Program-made: the position numbers and the translations under genes
Source: Cladocopium goreaui
Taxonomy: Eukaryota > Sar > Dinophyceae > Suessiales > Symbiodiniaceae
NCBI GenBank assembly: GCA_947184155.2
Contig: CAMXCT020001413.1
Location: forward strand, 643,501-707,500
Reading direction: 5' to 3'
DNA length: 64,000 bases
Notes under the pieces: generated by a model
What the model was told of the DNA's origin: nothing
Seen by the model: the letters and a program-made list of their open reading frames with translations, nothing else
The model's database searches: none
Shown: positions 9,441 to 32,055 of the stretch, piece after piece
How the letters are laid out: every line of letters starts with the position of its first letter
Numbering within the stretch: position 1 is the first letter of the stretch

Positions 9441-9925
9441 TGTGTGTGGCACATCTGTACAGATGTAAAACGTCAGGGTTCTTGCAGTTGTCAGCAGGGG
9501 GCACAGGTGTGACTCTGGTTCCTGTGCCAACGAAGACGGCCAGAAGTCACAGTGATATCAAAGGGAGACGTCCCTTTGACGTACCTGCTTCAATTTCATT
9601 TCATGTCATGTTTCTGGGACGGGATGTGGCTAACCCAAGAACCACCGTGCCGTTTCCAAACCATTTTGTTTTCAACTTCTCGTGCTGCACTGTTGTTGCA
9701 ATCTGTATTTATTTATTTTCGACGTCTTGGTCCTGGTCTACGGTTCATTTGATGTGGATTTCGATTTGATGACATTCATGGCAGCGATTGTCTTCTCGGA
9801 GTACCTCATATATTGATCAGCTTAGGATAGCTTAGGTTCCCATTTTTGTTTGTTCCTGACTAATTTGCATGTTGCAGGACTCAGTTCCTGATGGGTCTCT
9901 TCAAAGATCCAATTTTGTCTAGTGT
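9441..9925 (+). ncRNA. M1 structured RNA module, copy 1
   Basis: Starts in a GT run. Head hairpin ACATCT/AGATGT at 9451-9466. Outer helix GCAGG (9494-9498) with CCTGC (9584-9588). Inside, helix B GGCACAGG (9500-9507) pairs with CCTGTGCC (9521-9528). Its loop TGTGACTCTGG (9508-9518) pairs with 9540-9551, apart from one bulged base, giving an H-type pseudoknot. AACGAAG (9529-9535) lies between. Hairpin D is TCAAAGGGA/TCCCTTTGA (9558-9579). Hairpin E is GTGG/CCAC around a 12-nt loop (9626-9645). The tail carries CAGGA/TCCTG and a GGGTCT/AGATCC hairpin that includes a G-U pair, and ends TCTAGTGTA. It is the 5'-most unit of the large retroelement. Ribozyme, translation or priming roles are all possible; none is shown. 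Confidence 0.6.
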
Positions 9926-10390
9926 AATATCCATGGTGACTCCGACATGGCGCTATGGAGTCACTTGAGGCAACCCCTTTGCGGGCGACCGTCGACCGTG
10001 GACGAACTTGACATCGGAATTGACACTTTTAAATTAGTAATTCGTTTAAGTAAAGCGAAACAGTTGGCCTTTCCGTTCTGCACCATCTTTGTGATGCCCC
10101 GCTGGTCCTACGGTCCCAGGGAGCCTTGTGGAATGCGTCCCTACTAGCGCAAAGCCTTTCGGAACAGTCAGAAACTCCCTGTTTGCTCACGCAGCTATTT
10201 TGAAGGGACATATGAACTGCAACATGACATGAATGCCAGGCAGGCACATGAATGGTTTCTGGTGAGGTTGAACATTTCGTGCATCTAATTCGTTGGAACC
10301 TGATCAGCTGTTTATGCCACTGCGGCACGACTTGACTACGGTCCTGAAGGGGAGTAACGCACGACTTCTAGTGTAGTTGGAACTGAGTCC
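9926..10390 (+). repeat. M2 leader of the retroelement (copy a)
   Basis: Homologous to M2 copies at 27690 and 28720. It begins just after TCTAGTGTA with a hairpin GTGACTCC (9936-9943)/GGAGTCAC (9957-9964); copy b has GTGGCTCC/GGAGCCAC, a compensatory pair change. Further conserved words are TTAAGTAAAGCGAAACAG (about 10047), CAGTCAGAAA, CAGCTGTTTATGCC and GACTACGGTCC. No ORF is conserved among the copies, so it is read as a non-coding leader. Confidence 0.6.
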
Positions 10391-10454
10391 TGTTTGATCT
10401 TTTATCATTCAATTCGAGTGCGAGCTTTGATCCCGTGGCACCATCCTTCGGCAT

Positions 10455-12483
10455 CATGGCCGACTTCATCGAGCCCATCACCTACAGCACCAACGTGGCC
10501 TCCTTCCGCACCGCCGACTCCTACACCTACATCGTCAACGATGCCTACACCTTTACCTTGGCCAACTCCTTCACCGACATCTACTCCGCCCCCAGTCCAC
10601 CATCATCCTGCTCACCATCCAGATTACCCACAATTTAGCTCCGGCTTCATTTTCGACCTCGACACCCGGCCCCGGTGACCATCTTTTCGGGCAAGCCTCT
10701 ATGTTGCATTCTTCGTGGCCCACTATGACCCCTTCGCCGATGCCGACAAGTTCGCCAACTCCGCCAACAGTCACATCCGTCACCACTCCACCTCAATTAT
10801 CACAGCCGAACATGCCTTTGACCGCACCTTCACATCCGGGCTTTGCAACTTTTGCATCCAGCGGGCGTTTTGAACCTCCAACCTTCCCTACACCAACAGC
10901 ATCTTTTTCGACACATCCGGGGCCTTCTCTTACAACTCCATGCCATTCCAGTCCGACTCTCGACGCCACCATGTCCCATCCAGCTCCACACAGTACGGCA
11001 ACCACACCAACAGCCAATTCCGACAACTCCTGCCACACCAGTACCGCCATCTCCACTACCTCCTGCCGCACCAAAACACACAGCCGTCAAAGCTGCACCA
11101 AAACTACGACCTGACAAACGCCCAGAGAAGACTCGTCGACCTGCTCATCCACCTGCTGTTCCGCCGGTACCAGTTCAATCCCAAGCACCACCCAACACTA
11201 CTCAACAGGAACTCACCACCTTGGGCACCACTGCCAAAGAGCTTGCGGAATCAGCTCACCTCCTACAACAACAACAGCAGATCATCATCGAATCTCAGCG
11301 TCTCCAACAACAACAACAACTTCACCAGAATCCTCCTCCTCCACCTTCAACAACTCCACTACCAACCGCTCCAACTCCAGCATCCAAAGCCAGGCCAACA
11401 GAAACACCTCCACCCGTTCCACTGCCTGCATCTACTTCTGGAACGGCTGCGCCATCTATTCGCATTCCTTCGGCTTCACCTATCGTAGTGGCTTATCACC
11501 TCGACCTCGCCGATCCCGATCTCGCCGACGATCTCCACGCCGATCTCAACATCGCCGACAAGCCCGTCCCCGATCTCCTCTACCACGTCAACGATCCAGC
11601 ACACATAACCCCAAGAGTCGACGAACACCTTCACCATATCGTCGCCGATCTCCAGCACGACGTCCTGCTTCTCGTCAACAACATCGAACACCTGATCCTC
11701 CTCGTCACAGTCGAACGCCATCTCGCAATGCCATTGTGCTGACTCCTGCCCCCAGGAGCTATGATTCAACATTCATCCCGTCTCCCGATGCTGACGACAC
11801 CTGGGGCAATTGGCGCGACAGGCGACCATCTGGTCATCGACCTCGCTCTCCAACTGGTCCTCCACCGACCTCGGCGTCTCTCGCGCCTGTGGGCTCGGTT
11901 TCATTCAGGATTGCCGACGGGGACTCGGACAACAGTGATCAAGAAGATAATTTTTCCATAGGCGACTACGAGGCTGGAGACACCGCTGTGGAAGAGCTGA
12001 AAGCAGCAGCAGTTGACCCCAATCAGGTCCATTGTGTGGCCGAGTTAAGCCCAACCCACTCCGTCCAACTTCGGGAAACCTCCACGCACAAGCTCTTCAA
12101 CAAATTCATCGATGAGATATTTGCCCAACTGGCCAAGCCCCACATCACGGAGTCTAATGAGACGATCTATATACATCAAGGCGGATCGTGCCACAGTCAC
12201 CAACATTGCACGGTGTTATGCAAGAGCAAACCTGTTGGACCTCAGCCTTGCTCGTCAGACCCATGGCTACTTTATCCAGCCGGAGAACTTGCTGACCGTC
12301 ACGGTCCCAACGGGCTTACCACCTAAAGCCACCTTCAAAGGGGAATTCTCACCAGACGAATCCGCCAAAACGATCCAGAGAGCCAGTGTGGCGATGGGGA
12401 TTGATGCCTGCAAACTTAAAAACTCCTCCACGGATGAGATTGTGCTCAAGGTCATGACGGTGGCGATGCTGATGAACTCCTGA
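10455..12483 (+). pseudogene. Retroelement ORF1: Pro-rich, RS-rich, gag-like
   Basis: The coding path changes frame several times. A start MADFIEPITYSTN lies at 10455. A Pro/Gln-rich stretch follows at about 10840-11480 (for example LLQQQQQIIIESQRL). At about 11480-11740 another frame gives a domain packed with RS, RR and SP pairs like an SR-protein tail. An acidic segment (GDSDNSDQEDNF) follows, then a conserved C-terminal region ending near 12481. The ending, PDESAKTIQRASVAMGIDAC, is related to PAEALETVQRVAVMMGMPVG in the element at 56.5 kb, so this C-terminal part is a real conserved domain. A nucleic-acid-binding, gag-like role is inferred from composition only. Frame changes near 11480 and 12150 indicate decay, or an error-prone copy. 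Confidence 0.55.
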
Positions 12484-12691
12484 ATAGCCAGCCACCTGAA
12501 TTCTCGGGACTCAAAAGCAGTCCACATCATGAGAGACCTCACCGTTGTTCATGCAGGTATTTTGTCGCTAGCTCTGCTCACCCCGTTTACTGTGTCTCCT
12601 TCGATTGAAGTTTTTTACGCCTTCCGTATGATTCAAACGATGTTGATGGGTCAGTATATATGTTCTGCTGCACCCAAAAAGTAATTCGAAG
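12484..12691 (+). other. Spacer between retroelement ORF1 and the nuclease/RT frame
   Basis: About 200 bases without a supportable frame. The equivalent spacer in the 55-57 kb element is similar in size (about 56560-56800). Confidence 0.4.
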
Positions 12692-13538
12692 TTGCAAGCT
12701 CCGATCAACGGCACACCTTTTCGGCGATTATTTCATTGCACATCGTGGGATGACCTCGCGTCTTTCCTCAGCTGTTTCAAACAAATGAACGCTGTGTATG
12801 TCAGGTTTTCTCATATCGCGAATTTCCAACCAAAGTTTTATTTGGGTTCCACCTCGTCGTTTGTCCTTTGTCGCGAACATTCTCGTTACCGAAAGTTCTT
12901 ACAAGTCCAACAAAAACAAATTTTTCTTGGCCGAAGTGGCTTTGAGATTTTGGTGCCGATATGACAACTTTTGGATGTGGTCGGTTTTGCCTATTTACAC
13001 CAACAAATCAAACTTCTGGGCTTTGGAACAAGCCTTAATTCAATTGCGGCAACCTCGGCTGAATACTTCGTTCATTTATCAATTTTTCAGCTGTCGGAAG
13101 GGGCTTATCGCCTGTTCCAAATTTTCCAGCTCGCGACAATTCGGAACCTTCTCGCTGTGGCGCAAACTTCGTTGGGCTTCCACCCCACAACATGTTCGAC
13201 GAGCTCTTCAGTCCCCTTTTCCATCGGCGAGTACACCTTTGGGAAATCATCCCGGATTTGGGCAGCAACTCCGTCAAGCGGCTTCCACATGGAGAAAAAA
13301 ATCAGATCCGACGAAATCGGCACCCAGGGATGCTACTTCATTCGACGTTTGGCCAACAACCTCGGTGAACCTCAGCGCTCCTATGCCATCAACGCCATCG
13401 ACAGGGCCCTGAAGTTTTGGAAGGCAAAACCTGTTCGCAAACCAACTCCACTCCGAGCACCTTGAATCCTTTCACCCACTTGGACCCGAGATCTTCGCAA
13501 ACTTCTCACGTCTCATACCCACAATACCAAACAATGCA
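12692..13538 (+). pseudogene. GIY-YIG endonuclease domain of the retroelement
   Basis: Two overlapping frames join into one domain: VYVRFSH, then KFYLGSTSSF, CREHSRYRKF, after a frameshift near 12920 LAEVALRFW, and EQALIQLRQPRLNTSF (about 13025-13070). This matches the GIY-YIG nuclease plan: a degenerate GIY strand, the YIGS strand (here YLGS), the Arg and His of REHS, the catalytic Glu in ExxLI and the PxLN ending. The element at 56.8 kb has the same domain intact (KFYIGSAMHH, DREYSHS, LELALIQEWQPRLN). After the domain both copies continue with RRLANN, a Trp-rich block, then SxxxxLCNH. A GIY-YIG domain upstream of the RT is the order of one branch of Penelope-like elements. Confidence 0.7.
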
Positions 13539-15209
13539 ATGTTACCCGGCCTTCAACCGCCTTCTACGAGCGTCGTCTTCACCAAGTACCCTTCAGTCAT
13601 GGACAGCCTACTATGCAATCACAAGGACCAAGCCACACGATGGGCCGATGGGGAATCGCCAACATGCACGTGTCCAACCATGCGACCATATATTAATATC
13701 TATCCTGCACCTCCAGAAGATCAACACCTCATCCTTGACGGCGACACTTTGCACTTCCAGGACCAGCCCTTAACCTCCATTGCGACGGGCTCCCTACAGA
13801 ACAAGATCTTCCCACCTCAAAAAGAGATCTTCAAATCCCTCCAAGATGCTATCCCAACGTGGTCCAAAAAGAACTCACTCCCCTCGGTGTCCTGTCGGAA
13901 TATTGAGGACCTCTGGACCAGCTCAAGGCACAACCACAATATTTCACTCCACGACCACATCACCCACAAGGACATCGCTCGTTTTCAACAATTATTCCCC
14001 GATGCCGTGTTCCACAACGAAGACAAACGGGCTACTTCGCTTCGAATAATATTCTGCCCCTTCGTATACTACGAATGCCTCACGAACACCTTTTCTGACC
14101 CTCTGGTCTTTCGGAAACTCGATGCCACTCCAGCTGCCATCATCGACAACACCATCGACGAGATCACCATGCAGTTTGGCAAGATATACCCCTGGGCCTT
14201 GGGCTCTGGGCGAGACCTCCCGAATGCCTTACGTCCTACCGAAGAGGCAAAAACAGTTTCGCTCTGGCAGACCGATCGTCAGTTTCTTCTCGGCACCTTT
14301 TCGACCGATGCTGAATTGCATTGCCAAACTCATCTATCAACTTTTACCCAAAGCTTTCCCACACAACTTGGCAAAGGGCGACGTCTTTGCCCCCTCATCA
14401 AACTCCTCAAGACCACTGACTTTGACGCTATATCTACCCCACAAATCTACAATTAAAATCTTGCAGGCTTCTTCACGAGCATCGACACAGACCGATTCCT
14501 GGACAGCTGGCGCCTCACGCTTCAATACTTGTCATCCACTATGAGCACCAACCCCGATGAAATCATTTCCGTGAAACCCACGACTGGCAACACGACCGGT
14601 GACGTGGTCAAAGGCCGAAGGTGTCGCACCCCCAACGTAACCCGCAAGATCTACATCAGAGACATTGAGGCCATCATCCTCATGTCCTTGAAGATGACCC
14701 AGTTCTCCTCTGTTTACCAACAAATTCGTGGCTCCCCGATGGGATCTCCACTGAGCCCCGCTCTTTGCTTGATGGTCGTCCCACTCTCCGAGGAGATCTG
14801 GCATCGCACCTTTTCCGATACTCTGGCTTCGATGGACCTGACATCCCGCCTTCTTCGCTATGTGGACAACAGACTTTGTTTGGTGGATCCCTCTTGGCAC
14901 TACGAACCAGCTTTCGCCAACTTCCTTCACCCGGAGTTCGACGGCAAGCCTGTTATCCTGGAAACGGAACCAGACCAGGAATTCTTGGGCTTCTGCATTG
15001 AGTTTGAACCCTTCGCTCTACGATATCGTCCACCGAGAGACTTTAACCAGGTCATGGCTCCATTCTCAGCTTCACCGCTGGACGTTCAACTTTATGGCTT
15101 TGTGTCCAGACTGTTTTTGGTCGCTAAATGTGCGTACTTAATCCGAACAGCTACGAGGTTTTGCCGCATTGCATCGCTTGTACAAAGCTGCAGGCTTCCA
15201 GGAACCTGA
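13539..15209 (+). pseudogene. Penelope-like reverse transcriptase, broken
   Basis: The frame has one TAA (14454-14456). It first gives FTKYPSVMDSLLCNHKDQAT and a CTCP cysteine pair shared with the 57.7 kb element, then EDKRATSLRI. An RT finger block, RPIVSFFSAP and AKLIYQLLP (14225-14390), appears only in the +1 frame, so a frameshift pair surrounds it. Motif A NLAGFFTSIDTDRF follows directly after the TAA (catalytic Asp codon 14484). Motif B is GSPMGSPLSPALC (near 14735). Motif C is RYVDNR (14856-14873), with Asn in place of the usual second Asp. A later block EFLGFCIEFEP resembles motif D/E. The TAA replaces a codon in a conserved stretch and looks like a simple CAA-to-TAA change. MGSPLSP is typical of Penelope-like RTs. 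Confidence 0.75.
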
Positions 15210-15453
15210 CCTCGTGTCGGCTTCCAAACCAATTCGTCGCTACCTACATATAATTCGCGTTGGTAAAACTCTGCATCAAGTTGCTGCATCAGCACCTTCT
15301 CAGACTTGGAACCTTGAGCAACTCAGGTCAATTCTAATTATTTGGTTTTTGCGTGGCCACTATCCCAGTTCACTAGTCATTTATTCCCCACGAATGTGCT
15401 CCTGATTTCGGACGCCATGGCTACGTCTTCGTCTTTGACTACCATTCCCCTTC

Positions 15454-16050
15454 ATGAACCGGTTTTTCAACAATTTCTCCATGATGTTCATCACGCTTAT
15501 ACCTTCTCCTACATCGGGCCATGTCATTACTCCTACGCTGATTCCGAACATCGAACCAACCTCATTGCCTAGCACCAGCGTATGGAACCAGCCTCCTGGC
15601 TTCTTGCCGAACTTGGACTACTCCGATGAAACAAATGCCTTTATCGATGGTGCGCCTTTGCCCTCACCCGACCTCGAAGCGGAAGAGAAATTCATGCAGG
15701 AGCTCGTGGACTACAACCTACCTCCGCCCCACCAACATGTCGATGCACCAGTCCCAGCCTCGGTCCCTACTCCGCCAAAACTCTCTACGGCATCACAACT
15801 TCCATCGAAGAAGCGACTAGCCAAGGCAACCCCGAAAGCCCCTGGAAAACGCCGTCGCAAGGCCTCTTTGTCGCCAGTTCCCTCTCCGAGCTCCCCTCCC
15901 ATCTGGACTGACGAGGACAAGAAGATCCTTCGCACCCTCAAAACCGATGAGAGATCCCGTTTCTCTTGGAAGGTCATCGCCGGCAAGTTGGGCAAACCGG
16001 AGCACGATGTCCGGACTATGTGGAACCACATTAAGAATCGAATGGGATGA
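15454..16050 (+). CDS. Myb/SANT-domain protein inside the retroelement
   Basis: A 198-codon frame; its acidic and Pro-rich first half is followed by a basic linker (KRLAKATPKAPGKRRRK) and one C-terminal Myb/SANT-like repeat. The repeat starts WTDEDKKILRTL, continues FSWKVIAGKLGK and ends VRTMWNHIKNRMG. The tryptophan spacing and the final W-N-xIKN match a Myb DNA-binding repeat. An alternative upstream start in another frame (MATSSSLTTIPLHEP at 15417) may be the original N-terminus if a frameshift near 15530 is assumed. A single Myb repeat with a basic linker suggests DNA or chromatin binding, perhaps for target choice; this is inference. It lies 240 bp after the RT frame, on the same strand. 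Confidence 0.6.
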   Translation: MNRFFNNFSMMFITLIPSPTSGHVITPTLIPNIEPTSLPSTSVWNQPPGFLPNLDYSDETNAFIDGAPLPSPDLEAEEKFMQELVDYNLPPPHQHVDAPVPASVPTPPKLSTASQLPSKKRLAKATPKAPGKRRRKASLSPVPSPSSPPIWTDEDKKILRTLKTDERSRFSWKVIAGKLGKPEHDVRTMWNHIKNRMG

Positions 16051-16292
16051 CCTCTTCCACCACGTATCACTTCTTTCCAAACTTCGGCGATATTCGACTA
16101 CAGGACGGAAAAAAGGTGCACAACTCGTGAATCATCATTTTTCTCCATAAGGGTTTGCTTTACACTTCCTTGACACTTTGACTTTTTGTGAATCGGGTTG
16201 TTCGATTTTCGTCGCATGTACACCATAGCTCCTTGAGTGTTTTACACATGTCGCTTTGTGCCCACCTCGATCGCTAGTGTATGCAACGAGCC

Positions 16293-16958
16293 ATGACGAC
16301 CGATTTGCCCTTCTCACCTTCGAGATCTCGCTCGCCTACACGTGTTCCCCCGTCTTCGTCTACTGGCCCGTCACCATTTCATCGACCACCCGGATGGCAA
16401 CCGCCTACCGCTCATCGACCTAGTATTTTGCAAATTGACCTCAAGCCAATGCAACAACTTGCCAATCTAGATCCATACTACAATATCCTGGCCCCGCAAG
16501 TCGCTGGCAACCTTACTACCGATGAATACGACAGCTTGTTCCAAGCCTACAAGGTTATCTATCCAGATTACGCTGCACGACACTATGTTGGTGAGATCAA
16601 AACTATGGTGGTGGACCTAATGGCGCAGCGTTGGTCCATCTTCCCCAACACTACAGACTTCTATCTCTCGGTGGACACCGACAGGGCAACCAAATGCTGG
16701 ATCAACCTCGACATTCGATTTTGGACATCCTCAACTGGCATTATCCTGCTTGGAAAACTCATCAACATCTCTACGATTCTCTACGCCTTTACCAATCCTC
16801 CGGCCTTGCCATATTGCCCCACATCCAGACACCTCGGAAACAGGCTTGGTGGTTCGCATTCAAAGCATTCCTCGAAGGCATCCATTTTTCTCACCGGCCT
16901 TGGTGACAATACCATGATTCATCAGACAGCGCGAGTCCAGAAAGGAAAAAGACCTTGA
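16293..16958 (+). pseudogene. Retroelement ORF of unknown function, RSRSP start
   Basis: Starts MTTDLPFSPSRSRSPTRVPP, a Ser/Arg/Pro-rich leader like the MAESDRSRSPVPARN start at 55251. A folded-looking region follows (LDPYYNILAPQVAGN, YVGEIKTMVVDLMAQRW). Near 16720 the better frame changes: RKQAWWFAFKAFLEGIHF occurs two bases out of phase and ends near 16906. No known family recognised. The shared leader type suggests it belongs to the same element system. Confidence 0.4.
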
Positions 16959-17109
16959 GTGCATGTGTATTGTAGGACAATACTGCTTTCCTGATTTAAG
17001 TCCGGACATGTGGCATCACGTCCTTTGGCCGATTCCTTTCCATAGGATATCTTCCCAGGCTGGTTTAGGCTCTGACATTATTCTACCACACGCGCTTATT
17101 CTCAACCTC

Positions 17110-17762
17110 ATGGCATCGCCTCCCTATTCCTACACCGACATGTATGGAACCCAGCAAGCGCTACCACTATCGGAGAATCTCGAGGAACAATACATCCCTA
17201 GTGGCGACCCTTCGTCGGTATCATACATCCCTCGAGCTGCTCGATCTGTTCCCCACGCCCATACAGTTCATACTATTCACGTGAAGAAGATCACCTACCC
17301 CCTGACGTCTAGACTCCCTGAACTCTGTGTGTTGGAAACCAATCAAGATGGACTGGAAACGTGGCGCTCCATTGAGACCTTCTTGGGCAACCTTCAACTC
17401 TCTCAGGATCCCAGAGTTATACGGGCGATGGCAAACCAGTGGCGCATTCATTACGAAGTTCAACCAATTTCGACATCATCGCCTTCGGAGTCACTCAACC
17501 CAGTGCTTCCACACCCAGAACATTCGAATGTGCAATTTGGACAACCCGTTTCAGTCTTTCCGGACCATACGTTCATTCTCCAATCGTGTTGGGGACGTTC
17601 TGCCTACCATCATTCTCAAGTCCCTCCAACATCGCTATATTGGCCCCCTTCCCGCACTACACCTCCGACATCACCGTCCAGGCTACTTTTGCGACACAGT
17701 GCTCCTACACACGGATCCGGCATCTTCGTTATATCACCCTGGACCTCCTCGATCTGGCCTGA
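17110..17762 (+). pseudogene. Retroelement ORF of unknown function
   Basis: Start MASPPYSYTDMYGTQQALP; then HTVHTIHVKKITYPLTSRLP and LETNQDGLETWRSIETFLGN. Around 17470 the sequence makes better sense in another frame: FDIIAFGVTQPSAST, FECAIWTTRFSLSG, VLGTFCLPSFSSPSNIAIL, ending ITLDLLDLA. I therefore read one beta-rich protein of about 215 residues broken by a frameshift. I do not recognise the family; a structural or accessory protein is a guess. Confidence 0.4.
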
Positions 17763-18819: not shown

Positions 18820-18890
18820 AGCTGACCGAATGGTGGTCACACTGATTTCTGTACCATAGCCTAGCAGTTTTCGCTTCTGCTGCGGCCGGG

Positions 18891-19375
18891 CGTGTGTGTG
18901 GCACATCTGTACAGATGTCAAACTTCAGGGTTCTTGCAGTTGTCAGCAGGGGGCACAGGTGTGACTCTGGGTCCTGTGCCAACGAAGACGGCCAGAAGTC
19001 GCAGTGATATCAAAGGGAAACGTCCCTTTGACGTACCTGCTTCAATTTCATTTCATGTCATGTTTCCGGGATGGGATGTGGCTAACCCAAGAACCACCGT
19101 GCCGTTTCCAAACCATTTGTTTTCAACTTCTTGTACTGCACTGTTGTCGCAAGCTGTATTTATTTATTTTCGACGTCTTGGTCCTGGTCTACGGTTCATT
19201 TGATGGTATCTGGTGGATTTCGATTTGATGACATTCATGGCAGCGATTGTCTTCTCGGAGTACCTCATATATTGATCAACTTAGGTTCCCATTTTTGTTT
19301 GTTCCTGACTAATTTGCATGTTACAGGACTCAGTTCCTGATGGATCTCTTCAAAGATCCAATTTTGTCTAGTGTG
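18891..19375 (+). ncRNA. M1 structured RNA module, copy 2
   Basis: Near-identical to copy 1. Head 16-bp palindrome at 18903-18918. Outer helix 18946-18950/19036-19040. Helix B 18952-18959/18973-18980. AACGAAG 18981-18987. Pseudoknot helix 18960-18970 with 18992-19003, where one T-A pair of copy 1 has become a U-G pair. Hairpin D 19010-19018/19023-19031. Tail hairpin GGATCT/AGATCC, then TCTAGTGTG, which runs straight into copy 3. It forms the 3' boundary of the large element. Confidence 0.6.
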
Positions 19376-19640
19376 TGTGTGAACCATCTGAATAGATGTA
19401 AAACTTCTACCATGTTTCTGCAGGGGGGCAGTGAATCTCATTCCATCCACTGCCCAACGAAGACGGTGGTTTGAGATTGTGATATCGGGACTGATCATCC
19501 CGACGTACCTGCAATTTCCAATTTTCAGTTTGTCGTCACTGGCCACCGGCTAAGCCCAGAACCGGCATGTCGCTTTTCCAACTGTTTTCGAACCAAACAA
19601 CTGTACGATTTTCGCAATCTGACTGAGCTGCATCAGAACA
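19376..19640 (+). ncRNA. M1 structured RNA module, copy 3 (truncated)
   Basis: Head CATCT/AGATG at 19385-19398. Outer helix 19420-19424/19508-19512. Helix B GGGCAGTG (19426-19433)/CACTGCCC (19448-19455). AACGAAG 19456-19462. Pseudoknot AATCTCA (19434-19440)/TGAGATT (19472-19478). Hairpin D TCGGGA/TCCCGA (19485-19503). Hairpin E CCGG/CCGG around the 12-nt loop (19546-19565). Every helix differs in sequence from copies 1 and 2 but still pairs. The tail hairpins and the TCTAGTGTG end are missing. Confidence 0.6.
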
Positions 19641-22454: not shown

Positions 22455-23085
22455 CGGAAGCCTCGCACGAAACATCGATTTTGAGGTTGCAAATTTTCAG
22501 GTTCTAAGGAAAACTCGTAGGAAAACGTCGATTTTGAAGCTGCAAAGTGTGAAAAGTGGAGGAAGTCTCGCACGAAATGCTCGTTTTGGTGCTCCCACCT
22601 GTCTCTTCTCGCATGTCTGGTTTTCCCGTGGCCTCGCCGTGTCTATGGGGGAAGCTGCAAAACTTGTCTTTTTATCTTGTCGGCAACTGTGAAAATTACC
22701 GGAAGTCGCGCACAAAATGCTGGTTTTTCTACATCCACGTGTCTTGTCTCGAGTCGCTGGTTTTCCTGTGGCGTCGCCGTGTCTATGGGGGAAGCTGGAA
22801 AACGTCTCCTATTCGAATGTGTCCAAGCAGGTTGTCATGCCGTTTTGCGTGGCAGGCGTGGCACTTTGTGACATTCCAAGCTGTTTGATAACGTGTTGAA
22901 AATGTCAAAATTGGAGGAAGTCTCGCACGAAATGCTCGTTTTTCTGCATCCATGCGTCTCGTCTCGAGTCTCTAATTTTTCCTGTGGCGTCATCGTGTCT
23001 ATGGGAGAAGCCGCAAAATCTCTCCTTTTCGAAGGTTTCCATGCAGGTTGTCACGTCGTTTTGCGTGGCAGGCGTGGCGCTTTCC
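22455..23085. repeat. Diverged tandem repeat, three to four copies
   Basis: Each copy carries GGAAGTCTCGCACGAAATGC, a TGTCTCGTCTCGAGTC-like stretch, GTGTCTATGGGGGAAGC and sometimes the GCGTGGCAGGCGTGGC core. Copies begin near 22555, 22700 and 22915; the first part, from 22455, is more degenerate. Confidence 0.75.
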
Positions 23086-24330
23086 TCACCCCACTCCACA
23101 CTTTACACTCCTCACTTTACACTCCACACTCCACACTCTACACACCACACTCTACACTTTCCATTCCAGACTCCACACTCTACACTTTACGCTCCACACA
23201 TCTCCACACTCCACACTTTACACTCCCCATTCCGCACTCCACACTTTACACTCCACACTCCACACTTTACACTCCTCACCCCACACTTTACACTCCTCAC
23301 TCCTCACTCCACACTTTACACTCCTCACCCCACACTTTCCACTCAACATTCCACACTCCACACTTTACACTCCACACTCCACACTCCACACTTTACACTC
23401 CTCACTCCACACTTTACACTCCTCACTCCACACTTTACACTCCACACTCCACACTCTACACTCCTCACTCCACACTTTACACTCCTCACTCCACACTTTG
23501 CACTCCACACTTCACACTTTCCACTCAACACTCCACACTCCACACTTTACACTCCACACTCCACACTTTACACTCCTCACTCCACACTTTACACTCCACA
23601 CTTTACACTCCACACTCTACACTTTACACTCCACACTTTACACTCCACACTCTACACTTTAGACTCTACACTATGCACTCCACACTTTACACTTTACACT
23701 CCACGATTTCCACTTTACACTCCACACTTTACACTTTACACTCCACGATTTCCACTTTACACTCCACACTTTACACTCCACACTTTACACTCCACACTCC
23801 ACACTCTACGCTTTACACTCCACACTCCACACTCTACACTCCACACTTTACACTCCACACTCCACACTCTACACACCACACTCTACACTTTCCACTCCTC
23901 ACTCCACACTTTACACCCCTCACTACATTCCACACTCCTCACTCCACACTTTACACTCCTCACTTTACACTCCACACTCCACACTTTGCACTTTACACTC
24001 CTCACCCCACACTCTACACTCTACACTCCACACTCCACACTCTACACTCCACACTCTACACTTTACACTCCATACTCCACACTCTACACTTTACACTCCA
24101 CACTTTGCACTTTACACTCCTCACTCCACACTCTACACTCTACACTCCACACTCCACACTCTACACTCCACACTCTATACTTTACACTCCGTACTCCGCG
24201 CTCTACACTTTACACTCTGCATTCTACACTTTACACATTCTGCACTCCCCACTCCTCACTTTACACTCCACACTCCTTACTTCACACTCCACACTCCACA
24301 CTCTACACTGTCCACTCCACACTGCAGACT
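23086..24330. repeat. CACTCCACACTTTACACTC minisatellite
   Basis: About 1.2 kb of irregularly alternating 7-8 bp words CACTCCA, CACTTTA, CACTCTA and CACTCCT. No phase contains a stop in the plus-strand frames, giving frames of 472-480 codons of HSTLYTP/HFTLHT peptides that I do not regard as genes. Edges are sharp. Confidence 0.95.
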
Positions 24331-24334
24331 CGTA

Positions 24335-25800
24335 ACAAGGGAAACATGTACAAGACTGTTCAATTAATCGATTGCAGAAAGGTATTGTGCGTCACTGCAT
24401 AACCATGTGTTTTGATACTGTACCATTAACATACGTGTGAGCATTCGGGTTCGTGGGTTTCATCTTGTTTTTTTTTGGTTCTTGGTCCTCTATTCATTTG
24501 GACTGCAATGAAACAACATTTTGACATGTATTGACTGATGTTCAATGGGACCGATCTCCAAACCATTTTGATATCACCAGCACAGCCTAAAAACAATTGT
24601 GTCACAGTAAATGCAAATGCCGCGGCATGTTTGCATGAAGTGACAACAAAACACACTTCAGCAACCAAAAGGCTGCATATCAGCGAGCATCTCGTGTAAA
24701 ATGGTGTGCAGCTATGGAGGTTGAGGGAAGCATCCACTTAGCTTTGTTCTTCTTGCTTTGCTTGAGAACCATGAGAATCAGGCTCATGAGTAGAAATTCG
24801 GTCAGACGAGAATTAAAAGGAATCATAACCTTTGAGATCTCAATGGTGAAGCTGCGCACCGTCTCTTTTTTTTGGTTTTGCAGATGAGCTTGCTTTCACA
24901 GCACCACTAGCATCGCTGCCTGTCTCCGAAGTCATCTCAATCACTTGCAGGTTTTGGCATTTGCCTTCCAAGCGACAAAGGTTGGAAACTCAGATGTGAC
25001 ACGTAAACTCTGAAGGCCATGGAAAGATCTAGAAGCAAGCTGCAAAACAAAGGCTGGACCAGCATGTCCCGAGCATGTCCACACCATGTCCCGCGCATGT
25101 GCAGAGCGTGTCCAGGTTTGTTAAACTCATGAAACAAGTTCCAAATGTTCCAAACAAGTTTGATTGTTTTGATTGAGCAAATTTGACCCAAACAGATTTG
25201 ACAAATTGAAAACAGCTGGCACTTTGCTGGCACCGACTTGGCGAGTGCATTCTCAAGCTAGGAAGCTGTAGGAAGCTGTAGGAAGCTGTAGGAAGCTGGC
25301 CAGTTAGTGGTGCAATGAGACGTTTCACCAGTCCTTTGACGAATATGGCAAAGCTTCGGAAGATGTCAGGCGCGGCAATGCCTCATGAATCTGCCTTTAG
25401 TGACATTGCCGAGAAAGGTGACTAGCTTCAACTCAGCAGTCCCAAGCTGAAAGATGGCTCCACTCAAGGAAAAGCGTAAGGGATGAGAAATTCAATAGCG
25501 TAGGTCAAGAGACTTTTGCAGGACTCCCTCCTACGACTGGATATCTTGCTTTGAAATCTTTGAATCTTTTCGGCACTGGGAAATGGTACTGTAAATGGAG
25601 AATTTCGCTCAATTTCGGAAAGAAACAAACAGATCCACCCCCTCCAATGAGTTTATGATCTTTGGAAGCATAGAAATAAGGCAATGCAAAAGGAGACATG
25701 GGTTCAGTTTGGCTAAGATGAGGCAACTTTACCCCTGGCAACGGAGTGCTTGTCCAGACACCTAAACTCCTAAAGGGGGTGATAAATGTGATAACTTTGC
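24335..25800. other. Unassigned DNA, may hold the 5' exon(s) of the next gene
   Basis: No domain is recognised. A four-copy AGGAAGCTGT decamer lies at 25259-25298. The TauD-like gene downstream begins at a splice acceptor, so at least one 5' exon should lie in this interval or further upstream, but I could not identify it. Confidence 0.45.
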
Positions 25801-25804
25801 TCAG

Positions 25805-27030
25805 GTTACGCTGTAGCCTCCCTCGGTGCAAGTGCGAGCATCCGCGATATGGAAGCTGTAGCGCTCCAGCTGATGGGCGTCGACCCATTGAGCACCGGGA
25901 GCTACAATGGCCGTGGGGGTGTTGTGCGCAAAAGCAACTTTCCTGCAAGATGTCCCGAATGGTCCCGAATGGTCCCGAATGGTCCCAAATGCTCAAACGG
26001 TTTTAAAGCAAACATAGCAAACATAGCAAACCTCGACCCAAGTTTGATCGTCCGAAGGCATCCTCTTTTGGATCGTCCGGAAAAGACCTTGCCGCCATGT
26101 GTTAAACTGCGAGGCATTGATGGCACTGGCTTCGTGGATTCGGCAGCGGGAGCACCAAAGGAGTTAACGATTCAATTCCACAATGAGATGGCATATGCAG
26201 CGGAATTCCCGAAGTATGTGACCTTTGCGATGGTCAAACAGGCAAATGTTGACGGTACAACTACACTGGCAGACAATATGCTTGTGCAGCAGAAGCTTTC
26301 AGCTTCTTTGTTGAAAAAGTTTCACGAACTTGGTGTTCAGTATATCCGTTTCCTGCATGATGAGTCAGAGAAGAGTGCTCCAGATTTCTACAATTCTTGG
26401 CAGGGTGCTTTCCAGACAAGCTCGATGGATGTTGCTTTGCAGAACGGGAACAATAGGACCAACTTCTCTATCTTGAAGAAACACGATGACAGACGCCTTC
26501 GCCACATCCTTTGGTGCCCCGTATTTCATCAGCATCCAACCCTTGGAGAGCTTTTCTTCAACTCGGTGCTGAACAGACACGGCTCGTGGATGGATGGTCA
26601 TTCTTTCTTCGGAAAGCTGCCAAACAGCGAGCGACCGTACCACTGCACTTGGGGTGATGGCAGCGAGTTCAATGATGAAGAACTTGCAGAGATCAGGACG
26701 GCTTACTCTGAGAGCACCGAGTACATCAGACTAAATCCTGGCGATGTTCCGAGTCTGAACTGCTGGTCAGTAGCAATTTCCATTTGGGGACCCACCATAG
26801 TTGGACAATTCCGCATAACTATTTTCTTGGAACGCCAAGATTCAACTTTAGCCAGGTCCTAGTGTTTGCCCGTCTCTTCGTCTCAGGTATTGGTTCTGGA
26901 CAACCTCAGAGTTGTGCATGGTCGGACACCATACCGGGGTAGTCGCCTCCTGGGTTTGCTTTTGTCTGACATGGTCCCCCGACAACCCTGTGAGCCGCCA
27001 CCAGCTTTTGCAAAACTCTTGCAGGGGTGA
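25805..27030 (+). CDS. TauD/TfdA-like 2-oxoglutarate/Fe(II) oxygenase
   Basis: Two exons are inferred. The first recognisable exon starts after a CAG acceptor at 25804 and reads YAVASLGASASIRDMEAVAL, 14 residues before the first Met (25849). From that Met, the iron ligands are His111 and Glu113 in FHNEMAY, then TTTLADNMLV, a long middle section with HPTLGELFFNS, and EYIRLNPGD. A 141-nt GT-AG intron (26746-26886) follows. Exon 2 gives VLVLDNLRVVHGRTPYRGSR with the distal iron His (about 310), and ends at 27030. HxE...HGR and the LVLDN strand are the signature of the taurine-dioxygenase/SyrP-like branch; these enzymes hydroxylate small molecules with 2-oxoglutarate and oxygen. Substrate unknown. 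Residues 36-62 are encoded by 12-bp and 9-bp tandem repeats, an odd low-complexity insertion. 5' exons are missing from the model. Confidence 0.8.
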
Positions 27031-27250
27031 AACTGGATTGAAAAAGGAAATGATTTGCAGTGCATTATTTGCACAATAGGCCATGGTTTACCAGCATCAA
27101 ACCTGCTTCTATGTCACTTGTTGGTTGTGTCCAATGTTCAGGTTGAAGAGGAGAGCGAGGCTTGTACCCGATGAGTGCTATCAAGGACAGAAAGAGGTTT
27201 GGGCTTCCAGCACCATGCCACTGATGCCACTGGGAAAAGACTTGGCTCTG
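27031..27250. other. Intergenic spacer
   Basis: About 200 bases between the oxygenase stop and the next M1 head; a 3' untranslated region is likely within it. No polyadenylation signal can be named. Confidence 0.4.
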
Positions 27251-27689
27251 TGTGTGTGTAACATCTAAATAGATGTAAAACTTCTCCTTTTTTCTTTTTC
27301 TTTCTTCTCTCCTTTTAATAAAGCAGGGGGACCATCCATGTGCTGTGTGCGATGGTCCAACGAAGCGGCCACAGTACATGCGGATATCACGGCCGATCAC
27401 CGTGACGTACCTGCCTTTTGCAATTTCCTGGAATGGCAAGGGGCCAAGCCAAGAACCCCAGAAATAGAAATGTCGATTTTACACGGTTGTCGCAATCTGA
27501 AATTCACCTCGACTATTCTTTCGATGTTTGGCTTTCCTTCTATTTGACGGCGATTCTGGTCACGATGGTCTTTTTGGAGAACTTCAATTATTCGAATACT
27601 TCTTAGGTTAATTTGTTTCCCGTCCGATTTGCATGTTAAAGGACTCCGTTACTGATGGATCTCTTCAAAGATCCAATTTTGTCTAGTGT
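27251..27689 (+). ncRNA. M1 structured RNA module, copy 4
   Basis: GT run, then head ACATCT/AGATGT (27261-27276). Outer helix 27323-27327/27410-27414. Helix B GGACCATC (27329-27336)/GATGGTCC (27351-27358). AACGAAG 27359-27365. Pseudoknot CATGTGCTGTG (27337-27347)/CACAGTACATG (27370-27380) with one G-U pair. Hairpin D TCACGG/CCGTGA (27387-27405). Hairpin E GGGG/CCCC around CCAAGCCAAGAA (27440-27459). Tail hairpin GGATCT/AGATCC, then TCTAGTGTG, joined directly to M2 copy b. Almost identical to copy 9. Confidence 0.6.
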
Positions 27690-28454
27690 GATATCCATGG
27701 TGGCTCCGACATGGTGCCATGGAGCCACTTGAGGCAACCCCTTTGTGGGTGACTGTGGACGAACTTGACGTCGGAATTGACACTTTTGAATTAGTAATTC
27801 GGTTAAGTAAAGTGGAACAGACGGCCTTACCGTTTATCAGCCTTATGAGTTGTCCCGCCATTCCTGCTGTCCTTTGCGAACCCTTGGGATGATCATCTCT
27901 CTGCTGGATGTCGATCTGAACAGTCAGAAACTTTAGATTTACCGCTGCAGCTCCAGCTTTTAAAGTACAGCATGACATGAATGCCAGGACATGAATGCCA
28001 GGACATGAATGCCAGGCAGGCACATGACCTTCAGGTGTGGTATTTTTCGTTTTTGATGGTTTCTGGTGAGGTTGAACATTTCGTGCATTTAATTCATTGG
28101 AAGAACAGCTGTTTATGCCATTGCGCACGACCTGACTACGGTCCCGAAGGGGGGTAAGGCCCGACACCTGTTGTAGTTGGAACTGGGTCCTTTTTAGATT
28201 AATTGTTTTGGTTGTTTCACGCCCGTCACCAACTAGTCCCCATTCGGTCCCTAATTCTTCCATTGTGATTCTCCGTAATGTGTCGTGGGTTTAGGTGTGT
28301 GCTCTGTTTTTGTCAGGTCCGTTTCGCCGCGTAGGTTGGTTCTGGAGGTCCGTTCGTTCCCTTCCCCCCCTGCGCTGTTCTGGCCTTTTGCCCGTCATCT
28401 GTGTCCGCTTTTTCCTCCCTCTTGCCTTTCAGGATTGACCCGGCTCCGGCCGGG
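27690..28454 (+). repeat. M2 unit, copy b (short element derivative)
   Basis: The first 500 bp match the leader at 9926-10390, including hairpin GTGGCTCC (27700-27707)/GGAGCCAC (27721-27728), TTAAGTAAAGTGGAACAG, CAGTCAGAAA, CAGCTGTTTATGCC and GACTACGGTCC. A T- and C-rich 3' part follows, ending GGCTCCGGCCGG before a GT run. No ORF. It looks like the two ends of the large element with the coding interior removed, that is, a non-autonomous derivative. A short three-copy ACATGAATGCCAGG repeat lies near 27977-28018. Confidence 0.55.
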
Positions 28455-28719
28455 TGTGTGTGTGTAACATCTGAATAGATGTAAAACGTCTCTCTTTTTC
28501 TTCCTTCTGTCCTCTCCCTTTCTAATAATAATAGCAATGCAGGGGGACAGGGCTCTCTGATGCTACTCTGTCCAACGAAGCTATGCATCAGAGAGGGAAG
28601 CATCCACTGGCCATGGATGTGTACCTGCAAACATGTCTAATGGTCTAGGCTGGTTTGCACGTTACAGGACTCAGTTCCTGACGGATCACTATAATGATCC
28701 AGTTCTTGTCTAGTGTGAT
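28455..28719 (+). ncRNA. M1 structured RNA module, copy 5 (short form)
   Basis: Head ACATCT/AGATGT 28467-28482. Outer helix 28539-28543/28624-28628. Helix B GGACAGGG/CTCTGTCC (28545-28552/28566-28573) with one G-U pair. AACGAAG 28574-28580. Pseudoknot CTCTCTGATGC (28553-28563)/GCATCAGAGAG (28585-28595), a perfect 11-bp match. Hairpin D CATCCA/TGGATG (28601-28619). Hairpin E is absent. Tail hairpin GGATCA/TGATCC replaces GGATCT/AGATCC of other copies. Ends TCTAGTGTG, joined to M2 copy c. Confidence 0.6.
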
Positions 28720-29451
28720 TTCCATGGTGGCTCCGACATGGTGCCATGGAAGGGTGAATGATGACTGTCCTGACTTCCGAATTCACACATTTTAATTTGG
28801 TAATTCGATTAAGTAAAGCGAAACAGCTGGCCTTACCGTTTTCCAGCCTTTTAGGGTTGTCCCGCTGGTCCGTTGGTCCCAGGGTTCCTCGCCGAAATGC
28901 CTGTCTATCAGAGTGAAGCCGTTCGGAACAATCAGAAATTTCGCTTTTTCGCTGCAGCTTTCATGAGTGAAGTGACATGTGCATTACTACGCGACACAGA
29001 GATCAGGCAGGTACATGGCCTTAGGTGTGGTCCTTTTTTGCTTTTTGATGGTTGTCTGGTGAGGTCAAACATGTTGTGCACCTAATTCGTTGGAATTTGA
29101 ACAGCTGTTTATGCCCTTGTGGCTGACCTGACTACCGTCCCGGCAAGGGAACAACGCACGACCTCTAGGTATTTAGGGACTGAGTTCTATTTTTTAAAAC
29201 TAATTGTTTTGGTTTTTCTTGTTTGCCTTCAACTAGTCCCTCATCTGGTCCCTAATTCCCCGCGTGCCTCTCCGTAATGTGTCGTGGGGTTTAGGTGTAT
29301 GCACTGTTTTGGTCAGGTCCGTTTCGCCGTGTAGGTTGGTTTTGGAGGTCCGTCTGTTCCCCTCCCCCCTGCGCTGTTTTGGCCTTTTGCCCGTCGTCTG
29401 TGTTCGCTTTTTTCTTCCTCTTGCCTTTCAGGGTTGACCCGGCTCCGGCCG
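28720..29451 (+). repeat. M2 unit, copy c (short element derivative)
   Basis: Parallel to copy b along its length, with the same order of conserved words and the same GGCTCCGGCCGG end before a GT run. The first hairpin is rebuilt as TTCCATGG/CCATGGAA. The 3' part (29230-29450) closely matches 28210-28455, so b and c are tandem duplicates together with the M1 copies ahead of them. Confidence 0.55.
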
Positions 29452-29729
29452 GGTGTGTATGTGTGTGTGTGTAACATCTGAATAGATGTAAAACTTATTA
29501 AAACTTCTCTCTTTTTCTTCCTTCTGTCCTCTCCCTTTCTAATAATAATAACAATGCAGGGGGACAGAGCTCTCTGATGCTACTCTGTCCAACGAAGCTA
29601 TGCATCAGAGAGGGAAGCATCCACTGGCCATGGATGTGTACCTGCAAACATGTCTAATGGTCTAGGCTGGTTTGCACGTTACAGGACTCAGTTCCTGACG
29701 GATCACTATAATGATCCAGTTCTTGTCTA
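29452..29729 (+). ncRNA. M1 structured RNA module, copy 6 (short form)
   Basis: Head 29474-29489. Outer helix 29556-29560/29641-29645. Helix B GGACAGAG/CTCTGTCC (29562-29569/29583-29590), with an A-U pair where copy 5 has G-U. AACGAAG 29591-29597. Pseudoknot 29570-29580/29602-29612. Hairpin D 29618-29623/29631-29636. Tail hairpin GGATCA/TGATCC. Runs through TCTAGTGTG directly into copy 7. Confidence 0.6.
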
Positions 29730-29985
29730 GTGTGTGGGAAACCCTGAATCAAAGGGTAAAAGCAGGGGGCCCGTGGACGCATAGATGGCACGGGCCAACG
29801 AAGACCCATCTATGTCGTCGTGAAAACGTACCTGCAAAACTCTCATCGTCAGAAATGGGAAGGTGGCCAAGCCAAAAACCACCCATGCCGACATGCCATG
29901 ACAGGACACGGCATGCTAACGTAACAACATGACATGACATGTATCATTTCATCTCATTTCACCCTCTCCCTTCGGGAGTTTTCCA
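29730..29985 (+). ncRNA. M1 structured RNA module, copy 7 (variant head)
   Basis: The head stem is rebuilt as ACCCT/AGGGT (29741-29757) with the loop still starting GAAT. Outer helix 29762-29766/29831-29835. Helix B GGCCCGTG (29768-29775)/CACGGGCC (29789-29796). AACGAAG 29797-29803. Pseudoknot CATAGATGG (29780-29788)/CCATCTATG (29806-29814). Hairpin D shrinks to CGT-GAAA-ACG. Hairpin E GGTGG/CCACC around CCAAGCCAAAAA (29862-29883). It lacks the usual tail and ends near GGGAGTTTTCCAA, then GTGTG. Confidence 0.6.
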
Positions 29986-29989
29986 AGTG

Positions 29990-30295
29990 TGTCTTTCATG
30001 CACCCGGATCTCTGATAAAGTGCCGGGGAAGCTTGGTGGTGCGTCTGCCGGGGATACCAGATTACAAGAATGAATCCAGCCATGACGTTGCCAGAAGCCA
30101 AATCCGCACAAGCATCCAGATTCCGCACAAGCATCCAGAAGTCTCCATCAGGGGTTGAATGTTTTCAGCATAAATCCAGAGGCCACGCCAGAATAAATCC
30201 AGAGTGAAACTTTCATCCCTCAGAAAAACCCCGTGTCATCCCATGATTCATGATTCATGTTCACTTAGCAATCATGTAAAAACCTAGCACTGAGA
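29990..30295. other. Spacer with small repeats
   Basis: Contains two copies of TCCGCACAAGCATCCAG (30101-30140) and ATGATTCATGATTCATG. No gene recognised. Confidence 0.5.
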
Positions 30296-31255
30296 GAAAC
30301 AGCACCATGCCGTTACCAGCCTTTTTTGTCGGTCGTTGGTTGCTTGCTGAACAGCCGGAAATTCGGATGCAGTGGTTTGCTTTTGTCAGCCTTTTTCAGT
30401 GGAAATTGAACTGAACGCCGTGAAACTTCCTTTGGTTTTTGTTGGAGCGAGAAAAATGCCACACCTCATTCATGACACCCACGGCCCATGTACACAGAGA
30501 TTTGAGCACCACGTTCCATGTCACAACCCAGCACAGAGAAACAGCACCATGCCGTTACCAGCCTTTTTTGTCGGTCGTTGGTTGCTTGCTGAACAGCCGG
30601 AAATTCGGATGCAGTGGTTTGCTTTTGTCAGCCTTTTCCAGTGGAAATTGAACTGAACGCCGTGAAACTTCCTTTGGTTTTTGTTGGAGCTAGAAACATG
30701 CCACACCTCATTCATGACACCCGCGGCCCATGTACACAGAGATTTGAGCACCACGTTCCATGTCACAACCCAGCACTGAGAGAAACAGCACCATGCCGTT
30801 ACCAGCCTTTTTTGTCGGTCGTTGGTTGCTTGCTGAACAGCCCGAAATACGGATGCAGTTGTTTGCTTTTGTCAGCCTTCTTCTGTGGAAATTGAACTGA
30901 ACGCCGTGAAACTTCCTTGGGTTTTTGTTGGAGCTAGAAAAATGCCACGCCTCATTCATGACACCCACGGCCCATGTACACAGAGATTTGAGCACCACGT
31001 TCCATGTCACAACCCAGCACTGAGAGAAACAGCACCATGCCGTTACCAGCCTTTTTTGTCGGTCGTTGGTTGCTTGCTGAACAGCCCGAAATACGGATGC
31101 AGTTGTTTGCTTTTGTCAGCCTTCTTCTGTGGAAATTGAACTGAACGCCGTGAAACTTCCTTGGGTTTTTGTTGGAGCAAGCAATGCGTCACAGACATTT
31201 GAGCAACACGTTCCATGTCACAACACAACACCGTGGAAACAACACACTAGATTAC
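30296..31255. repeat. 244-bp tandem repeat, about four copies
   Basis: GCACCATGCCGTTACCAGCC recurs at 30302, 30544, 30788 and 31032. Copies are more than 90 percent alike by eye; the last is truncated and diverges after 31175. Each copy has open frames on both strands, but there is no domain signal and the frame is not preserved between copies (242- and 244-bp periods). The array sits exactly between M1 copies 7 and 8. Confidence 0.9.
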
Positions 31256-31299
31256 AGACCATTTCTGGTTCGAAAAATCGTGCCCTAGCGGCTTGCTGT

Positions 31300-31553
31300 G
31301 TGTGGGAAACCCTGAATCAAAGGGTAAAAGCAGGGGGCCCGTGGACGCATAGATGGCACGGGCCGACGAAGACCCATCTATGTCGTCGTGAAAACGTACC
31401 TGCAAAACTCTCATCGTCAGAAATGGCAAGGTGGCCAAGCCAAAAACCACCCATGCCGACATGCCATGACAGGACACGACATGCTAACGTAACAACATGA
31501 CATGACATGTATCATTTCATCTCATGTCACCCTCTCCCTTCGGGAGTTTTGAA
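31300..31553 (+). ncRNA. M1 structured RNA module, copy 8 (variant head)
   Basis: Nearly identical to copy 7. Head 31309-31325, outer helix 31330-31334/31399-31403, helix B 31336-31343/31357-31364. The linker reads GACGAAG in place of AACGAAG. Pseudoknot strand CCATCTATG at 31374-31382. Ends GGGAGTTTTGAAA, then a GT run shared with copy 9. Confidence 0.6.
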
Positions 31554-31999
31554 AGTGTGTGTGTGTGTAACATCTAAATAGATGTAAAACTTCTCCTTTT
31601 TTCTTTTTCTTTCTTCTCTCCTTTTAATAAAGCAGGGGGACCATCCATGTGCTGTGTGCGATGGTCCAACGAAGCGGCCACAGTACATGCGGATATCACG
31701 GCTGATCACCGTGACGTACCTGCCTTTTGCAATTTCCTGGAGTGGCAAGGGGCCAAGCCAAGAACCCCAGAAATAGAAATGTCGATTTTACACGGTTGTC
31801 GCAATCTGAAATTCACCTCGACTATTCTTTCGATGTTTGGCTTTCATTCTATTTGATGGCGATTCTGGTCACGGTGGTCTTTTTGGAGAACTTCAATTAT
31901 TCGAATACTTCTTAGGTTAATTTGTTTCCCGTCCAATTTGCATGTTAAAGGACTCAGTTCCTGATGGATCTCTTCAAAGATCCAATATTGTCTAGTGTG
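31554..31999 (+). ncRNA. M1 structured RNA module, copy 9
   Basis: Nearly identical to copy 4. Head 31570-31585, outer helix 31632-31636/31719-31723, helix B 31638-31645/31660-31667, AACGAAG 31668-31674, pseudoknot strand CACAGTACATG 31679-31689, hairpin D 31696-31714. The tail ends TCTAGTGTG, followed by a longer GT/GC run and a tenth head. Confidence 0.6.
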
Positions 32000-32055
32000 T
32001 GCGTGCGTGTGTGTCTGTGTGTGTGTGAACCATCTGAATAGATGTAAAACTCAGC
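32000..32055 (+). ncRNA. M1 head only, copy 10 (truncated)
   Basis: GT run and head hairpin CATCT/AGATG (32031-32045), then AAAAC, after which similarity is lost. This marks the right edge of the M1/M2 cluster. Confidence 0.5.

Follow-up and report, generated by a model that had tools for sequence, protein, structure and literature searches.

A covariation-supported RNA pseudoknot in the terminal repeats of Cladocopium retroelements, possibly a new self-cleaving ribozyme

In a 64,000-nucleotide (nt) stretch of the genome of the dinoflagellate Cladocopium goreaui (contig CAMXCT020001413.1, positions 643,501 to 707,500; hereafter the window), a recurring sequence that we call M1 forms a cis-acting RNA domain, about 74-100 nt long, with a structure under selection. 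Whatever its function, M1 constitutes an RNA family that is supported by covariation and has no Rfam match. Its carrier fits, by motifs and weak profile matches, an N-terminal-endonuclease Penelope-like retroelement, and the newness lies in the RNA fold, not in this carrier. By analogy with the hammerheads that other Penelope-like elements carry in the same niche, we favor, with a probability of about 0.42, the interpretation that M1 is a new self-cleaving ribozyme.

M1 is framed by an outer helix, A (GCAGG/CCUGC), which encloses an 8-base-pair (bp) hairpin, B. We examined 163 unique copies, dropped 16 with a poor helix B, and grouped the remaining 147 at 70% similarity into 28 families, in which B is paired at 7.8 of its 8 positions on average. 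The loop of B measures 13-14 nt in 26/28 families, the length that a pseudoknot would need in order to span one helical turn. Almost the whole loop can pair with downstream sequence to form helix C, of about one turn (mean 12.2 bp; 10-14 bp in 25/28 families and 6, 8 and 18 bp in the remaining three), often with a bulge (22/28 families have one or more bulges or internal loops). An earlier, sequence-only reading of the window had proposed an H-type pseudoknot; the loop does pair 3' of the linker AACGAAG, but the helix is longer than in an ordinary H-type knot. A further pairing, E, joins the dinucleotide after AACGAAG to the one after C (AC/GT, CT/AG, CG/CG and others) and is formed in 46/56 pairs (0/20,000 permutations as good); these 2 bp likely, though not provably, close the C segment. 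Hairpin D is optional and dispensable, and the GUACCUGC strand (GTACCTGC in DNA) completes M1 through helix A. That strand had been counted among the unpaired parts, whereas its last five letters are the 3' strand of A.

Covariation was examined in an alignment of 140 copies, which left out those with a poor helix B, those with a loop outside 12-15 nt and 2 without an anchor. Average-product-corrected G scores were set against those of 150 null alignments simulated on a FastTree tree, each column undergoing roughly as many changes as its real counterpart, at a threshold of E<0.05. Thirteen column pairs were significant, and all 13 are predicted pairs (6 in B, 4 in C and 3 in D, none elsewhere); the identical 13 were obtained at two null rates, and an initial run against 12 null alignments yielded 14, the extra one falling in C. 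The tree records as many as 37 changes in a paired column, and hardly any in the unpaired core. Both in this alignment and in the 28-family tests the 5' strand of B and the D arm had been located by pairing, which favors B and D, whereas the helix C columns of the 140-copy alignment were never anchored by pairing. When helix B was placed with a pairing-free anchor, it was paired at 8/8 positions in 17/21 families and at 7/8 in 4/21, compared with a mean of 4.4/8 for swapped partners (0/20,000 as good). For helix C, the pairing score was 25.3 with own partners and 13.1 with swapped ones, and the own strand was the best partner in 23/28 families; partner swapping among these 28 families likewise gave 0/20,000 permutations as good. 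The covariation in M1 is thus real, and the earlier claim of selection on RNA structure, which was to be checked in a larger alignment, is borne out in B, C and D alike.

Several results weigh against this fold and the functional interpretation that builds on it. Neither A nor E has a significant pair in the 140-copy test, leaving the evidence for E weak at its 46/56. Helix A is the same in all nine window copies, so that the window yields no covariation for it, and its support elsewhere is a single compensated change, in an amplified GCGGG/CCCGC subfamily that accounts for most of the listed GTACCVGC matches and in which the change of CCTGC to CCCGC is accompanied by that of GCAGG to GCGGG in 5/6 fetched copies. 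No compensation was found in 14 sporadic GTACCVGC variants of other families or in 20 GTACDTGC variants; such uncompensated variants look like decaying copies. Energy folding, which covers nested folds only, gave B or C as alternatives and never both, and among five window copies folded against shuffles one was clearly better (z -2.95), the others ranging from -0.3 to -1.6. Separately, about half of the matches listed for the pattern CCAACGAAGN20-50GTACDTGC represent another repeated sequence (CCAACGAAGCTTCCGCCACAAGG...) and not M1.

The folding results could also be read as a two-state RNA switch in which B and C are not formed together, since nested folds give B in some copies and C in others at similar energies. 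We regard this as improbable: the loop of 13-14 nt in 26/28 families and the 8-bp frame of B throughout are features that a switch does not need, and by our own estimate A-form geometry permits one turn with 1-3 unpaired loop residues. The fixed loop length favors a one-turn knot. A different doubt concerns helix A, which would be merely apparent if GCAG|G served as a 3' acceptor site, as in trans-splicing of the spliced leader. T-rich sequence does precede GCAG in many copies, and 30/92 distinct upstream sequences contain at least 75% pyrimidine over 12 nt, but the other 62/92 fall below that level, the GCGGG/CCCGC subfamily keeps its pairing without an AG, and B, C and D would be left unexplained. 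The AG-less subfamily and the 62/92 upstream sequences contradict the acceptor reading, which we rejected as highly improbable.

Within the window, a covariance model trained on 12 copies, four of them from the window, finds exactly nine M1 matches, every one on the + strand (E 3e-20 to 2e-10), in agreement with the nine complete copies initially counted. RNAalifold alone recovered helices A, B and D from the same 12-copy set. The nine copies were said to share one fold, and they do share the core, but two of them (29762-29835 and 31330-31403) have no hairpin D and carry GTGAAAACGTACC in its place. As the copies group into five sequence families (2+1+2+2+2), the independent evidence from the window amounts to five. 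The window has 7 instances of AACGAAG with GTACCTGC 30-60 nt further on, against 0.00 expected from shuffles; the two copies outside this pattern both have a shorter spacer, and one of them reads GACGAAG. A head hairpin followed by AAAA had also been assigned to the fold. It is present, and the other M1 copies are preceded by a (TG)n/head-hairpin layout similar to that at 9439-9471, but the head is part of the terminal repeat's 5' end and lies from a few to roughly 80 nt 5' of the M1 core.

We also searched the whole genome (6,202 contigs, 1,165,616,438 bases). Exact matches to the core pattern CCAACGAAG-N20-50-GTACCTGC number 3,674 (1,840+1,834), against 6 (2+4) for the control. The dinoflagellate spliced leader has 172 matches (81+91), against 0 for the reversed pattern, which marks the host as a dinoflagellate. 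A guessed 14-nt pattern gave chance matches only. Neighboring M1 copies are often 1.0-1.5 kb apart in the same orientation, a spacing that resembles ribozyme-processed tandem units. The unpaired parts had been described as almost fixed, and AACGAAG is indeed present in 64/65 hits of a covariance-model search of 36 loci (157,643 bases) that does not require these letters, with the whole exact pattern in 61/65. Copies were collected mostly via AACGAAG and GTACCTGC letters, and since the search patterns demand AACGAAG and mostly GTACCTGC, this invariance is partly imposed by copy selection; the 36 loci had themselves been fetched by pattern, making the constancy of the core in the model search support rather than proof. 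Exact-pattern scans of viral and prokaryotic contigs yielded no recognized M1 among the 238 loci listed, where GCAGG upstream and a B-like helix were each found in 5/238, compared with 128/155 and 124/155 own-genome loci, respectively. The best of the listed viral and prokaryotic loci have none of the remaining M1 parts, and the matches are therefore read as chance.

M1 is also the most durable part of the terminal repeat. The reverse transcriptases (RTs) of locus L033 (element C24) and of L036 share 23-24% identity, and M1 is common to both elements. With M1 masked, the C24 repeat matches 0/6 other repeats (blastn, E up to 1e-3); without masking there are two matches among the six, and the alignment is confined to M1 save for a few flanking bases. 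The same M1 core recurs beside leaders and downstream sequences that are unrelated from copy to copy, and B-C parts that are almost identical can carry different D arms (L027 versus L048, L102 versus L106), the arms being swapped as units. In copies compared by inspection, the mosaic breakpoints fall at short conserved motifs, with none seen between the two strands of a helix. We take this history to reflect template switching at such motifs under selection for pairing, and rejected the idea that the M1 core is a self-moving cassette.

Six carrier elements were fetched nearly end to end. All have M1 in both terminal repeats, which are about 380-585 bp long (C15 runs to the end of its fetched stretch) and 97.0-99.7% identical, with an M1-to-M1 distance of 8-15 kb; (TG)n marks both outer ends in 5/6, the sixth being cut by the fetched stretch. 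In 37/41 families, one copy or more has a TG run no farther than 115 nt 5' of M1. The window's own element has repeats at 9440-9671 and 18892-19123 that are 96% identical, each with M1, and about 340 nt of its 5' terminal repeat (9439-9925) lie 3' of M1.

The long open reading frames (ORFs) of L036 (923 amino acids) and L038 (1,001 amino acids) are 46% identical and present, in order, a GIY-YIG-like motif, a CxC motif and RT motifs. The first of these reads VYIRF...FYVGS...E.ALIQ.WQPRLN ahead of the RT in both (PF01541 at E 0.022 for L036, none for L038 or for pieces of L033, where the GIY-YIG-like part occupies an overlapping frame of its own); the CxC motif, seen in three sequences only, is KCACD in L036, TCCCK in L038 and LCTCH in L033; and the RT motif GSPMGSPLSP was read in L036 and L038. 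Pfam RVT_1 is matched by 6/6 proteins, weakly (best E 1.6e-4), and the NCBIfam group II RT profile by L036 (0.0013) and not by L033; searches of PDB sequences with the element proteins gave no relative. The Chlamys/Naiad group, N-terminal GIY-YIG Penelope-like elements attributed to Craig et al. 2021, reportedly has a GIY-YIG-like motif before the RT in one ORF, CxC between endonuclease and RT, pseudo-long terminal repeats (pseudo-LTRs), tandem copies and insertion at microsatellites, and is said to be without canonical hammerheads. The M1 carriers appear to share this motif order, as well as the pseudo-LTRs, tandem copies and microsatellite insertion, but are long (8-15 kb) and have further ORFs, one of them Myb-like, and M1. 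That ORF is a downstream one in the element (L036:8761-9555, +; Pfam PF13921, E 9.6e-4, below the curated cut-off). Two long ORFs upstream of the RT (L036:1674-4343 and 4442-5977, +) match nothing in Pfam at E 0.1; the earlier one is rich in proline and arginine, and its conserved C-terminal part is also present in L031.

The sequence-only reading had called M1 a new-looking structured RNA whose order of helices differs from the HDV, hammerhead, twister and group I/II cores. Rfam gave no match at gathering scores in the window or the loci. With E up to 10 and lax filters on short stretches, what came up was unrelated and scored far under the gathering level (best E 0.28); pseudoknots are not scored by Rfam models. 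Covariance models for twister, twister-sister, hatchet, HDV-like, hairpin, glmS and other Rfam families had no match at gathering scores in the window or the loci, and neither hammerhead nor any other Rfam family was found in 79,870 bases of M1 elements and loci. The genome-wide runs of the Hammerhead_1 and Pistol models returned 0 matches, but so did their controls, and they carry no evidential weight. With covariation present and no clear Rfam match, the description as a new-looking structured RNA under structural selection stands. In literature searches, in which subscription papers were mostly outside coverage, none of the listed titles or abstract openings describes the motif.

A known ribozyme in disguise (a permuted hammerhead, pistol, twister or HDV) is very improbable, and we rejected it on the Rfam models and the motif content. 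Non-circular hammerhead permutations are on record (PMC10085705), yet the hammerhead box CUGANGA (CTGANGA in DNA) is absent from 28/28 families and present in 1/88 copies. Pistol (PMC6154101) has three stems, and its P1 loop pairs with the P2-P3 junction in a six-bp pseudoknot; P2 and P3 are connected through a short G-U junction, where cleavage occurs. Its strand order is partly that of M1, in that a hairpin loop pairs with a downstream strand past a short linker and a further hairpin follows 3'. M1 differs in its outer helix 5' of the hairpin, its 8-bp hairpin, a pseudoknot of about 12 bp (mean 12.2) instead of six, a D arm that is sometimes missing, and the absence of any covariance-model match.

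What places the ribozyme interpretation first is that nearly fixed unpaired letters combined with freely varying helices of fixed length are what an active site would require. In the proposed mechanism, A, B, C and E would bring the nearly invariant unpaired AACGAAG, the G after E and the GUA beside helix A into an active site, and M1 would cut tandem or read-through element transcripts within each pseudo-LTR. The location of M1, in both pseudo-LTRs and on the same strand as the RT in 7/7 elements, supports this possibility. According to PMC7761336, other Penelope-like elements have minimal hammerheads, of unknown role, in their pseudo-LTRs where mapped. The kind of element, the place within it, the small conserved-core RNA and the tandem units are shared between M1 and these minimal type I hammerheads, but M1 has another fold without the CTGANGA core, and hammerhead activity is established whereas that of M1 is predicted. 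The hammerhead of the Anolis element cut RNA only once the element's protein was added (PMC11167929), and M1 might likewise cleave only with such aid. The wider proposal, that M1 is a ribozyme class of its own, built on a one-turn loop pseudoknot and replacing the hammerhead in N-terminal-endonuclease Penelope-like elements, with thousands of dinoflagellate copies, is one we advance tentatively.

On the opposing side, the Anolis hammerhead was not required for insertion in vitro, and no RNA-seq reads started or ended at its cut site (PMC11167929). Insertions end at (TG)n runs 23-115 nt upstream of M1, with no obvious boundary at M1 itself. Furthermore, PMC10085705 reports that ten other conserved ribozyme-candidate motifs did not cleave in vitro, a failure of similar motifs that keeps our confidence in a ribozyme no higher than 0.42.

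The main rival, possible but unlikely, is that M1 is a non-catalytic signal that binds or positions the element's RT/endonuclease and is needed for retrotransposition. The carrier RT is Penelope-like, of a telomerase-related group, and M1 sits at both ends and is retained in young copies (repeats 97-99.7% identical). Pseudoknots with fixed loops are common protein-binding sites, and the R2 5' pseudoknot RNA and the telomerase RNA pseudoknot, each tied to a target-primed or telomerase-like RT, offer comparisons. M1 shares with these RNAs a pseudoknot and a link to an RT; they were compared via Rfam only, which gave no match. Against such a signal, the full pseudo-LTR of the Anolis element is dispensable for insertion in vitro, the required RNA lying within the first 172 nt of the ORF (PMC11167929). 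Moreover, M1 is more alike across RTs of about 23% identity than expected for a co-evolving site, and separate hairpins are present at the TG junctions. These hairpins, found in full-length elements (L031-L039, L067-L068) just after the 5' repeat and just before the 3' repeat (read by eye; for example GTGGCTCC...GGAGCCA after the repeat and CCCGCTACATGCGGG before the second repeat), are candidate reverse-transcription start or protein-binding sites. In the Anolis element, reverse transcription starts from an internal stem-loop close to the beginning of the ORF (PMC11167929).

As a compact knot close to the transcript unit's 5' end, M1 might instead protect or recruit, serving as an exonuclease-resistant RNA or a translation or stability element. 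We consider this quite improbable, as M1 is equally present in the 3' repeat and is not linked to a start codon; in L031 and L036 the first long stop-to-stop frame begins about 0.9 kb downstream.

The features of the window are collected in Table 1. A head without M1 occurs at 32016-32060, and a 21-nt tandem repeat (GGTGGCTGAATCTCCCATTGT-like; 32277-32822) starts about 200 nt 3' of it. Between M1 units lies a tandem repeat of about 244 bp in four copies (30273-31269), the other three being 72-96% identical to the first. A dense 7/14/21-nt minisatellite (CTCCACACTTTACA-like; 23080-24400) is traversed by a 480-amino-acid open frame. AACGAAG also occurs five times on the minus strand at 39774-40475, spaced 163-193 nt apart with no match to the M1 model, and belongs to another repeat. 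Far from M1, at 56877-57750 (+), is the N-terminal half of a second Penelope-like RT remnant, 40-44% identical to the L036 protein.

Table 1. M1 copies and carrier-element features in the window
Feature	Position	Strand	Remarks
(TG)n run and head hairpin (ACATCTGTACAGATGT AAAAC)	9439-9471	+	5' edge of terminal repeat
5' terminal repeat (pseudo-LTR)	9439-9925	+	approximate ends, by analogy with full-length elements (TG run to TCTAGTGT)
M1 core, family GGCACAGG	9494-9588	+	in 5' terminal repeat of the window's own retroelement; covariance model
Layout of this copy	A 9494-9498/9584-9588; B 9500-9507/9521-9528; C loop 9508-9520	+	C loop pairs with strand 3' of AACGAAG (9529-9535); then hairpin D and GTACCTGC
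RT coding region of the window's element	12484-15252	+	pieces in three frames, 48-77% identical to L036 protein
3' terminal repeat of the window's element	18892-19375	+	approximate ends
M1 core, family GGCACAGG	18946-19040	+	in 3' terminal repeat of the window's own retroelement
M1 core, family GGGCAGTG	19420-19512	+	unit directly 3' of the unit with 18946-19040
M1 core, family GGACCATC	27323-27414	+	covariance model
M1 core, family GGACAGAG	28539-28628	+	B 5' strand GGACAGGG
M1 core, family GGACAGAG	29556-29645	+	covariance model
M1 core without hairpin D, family GGCCCGTG	29762-29835	+	covariance model
M1 core without hairpin D, family GGCCCGTG	31330-31403	+	linker GACGAAG
M1 core, family GGACCATC	31632-31723	+	covariance model

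According to PMC12477816, Penelope-like elements were unreported in the TSAR supergroup before Ectocarpus, and a dinoflagellate, an alveolate, would be a further TSAR member with such elements. As a ribozyme, M1 would offer a reason why N-terminal-endonuclease Penelope-like elements seem to be without hammerheads, and would make the role of pseudo-LTR ribozymes testable in a second, unrelated fold.

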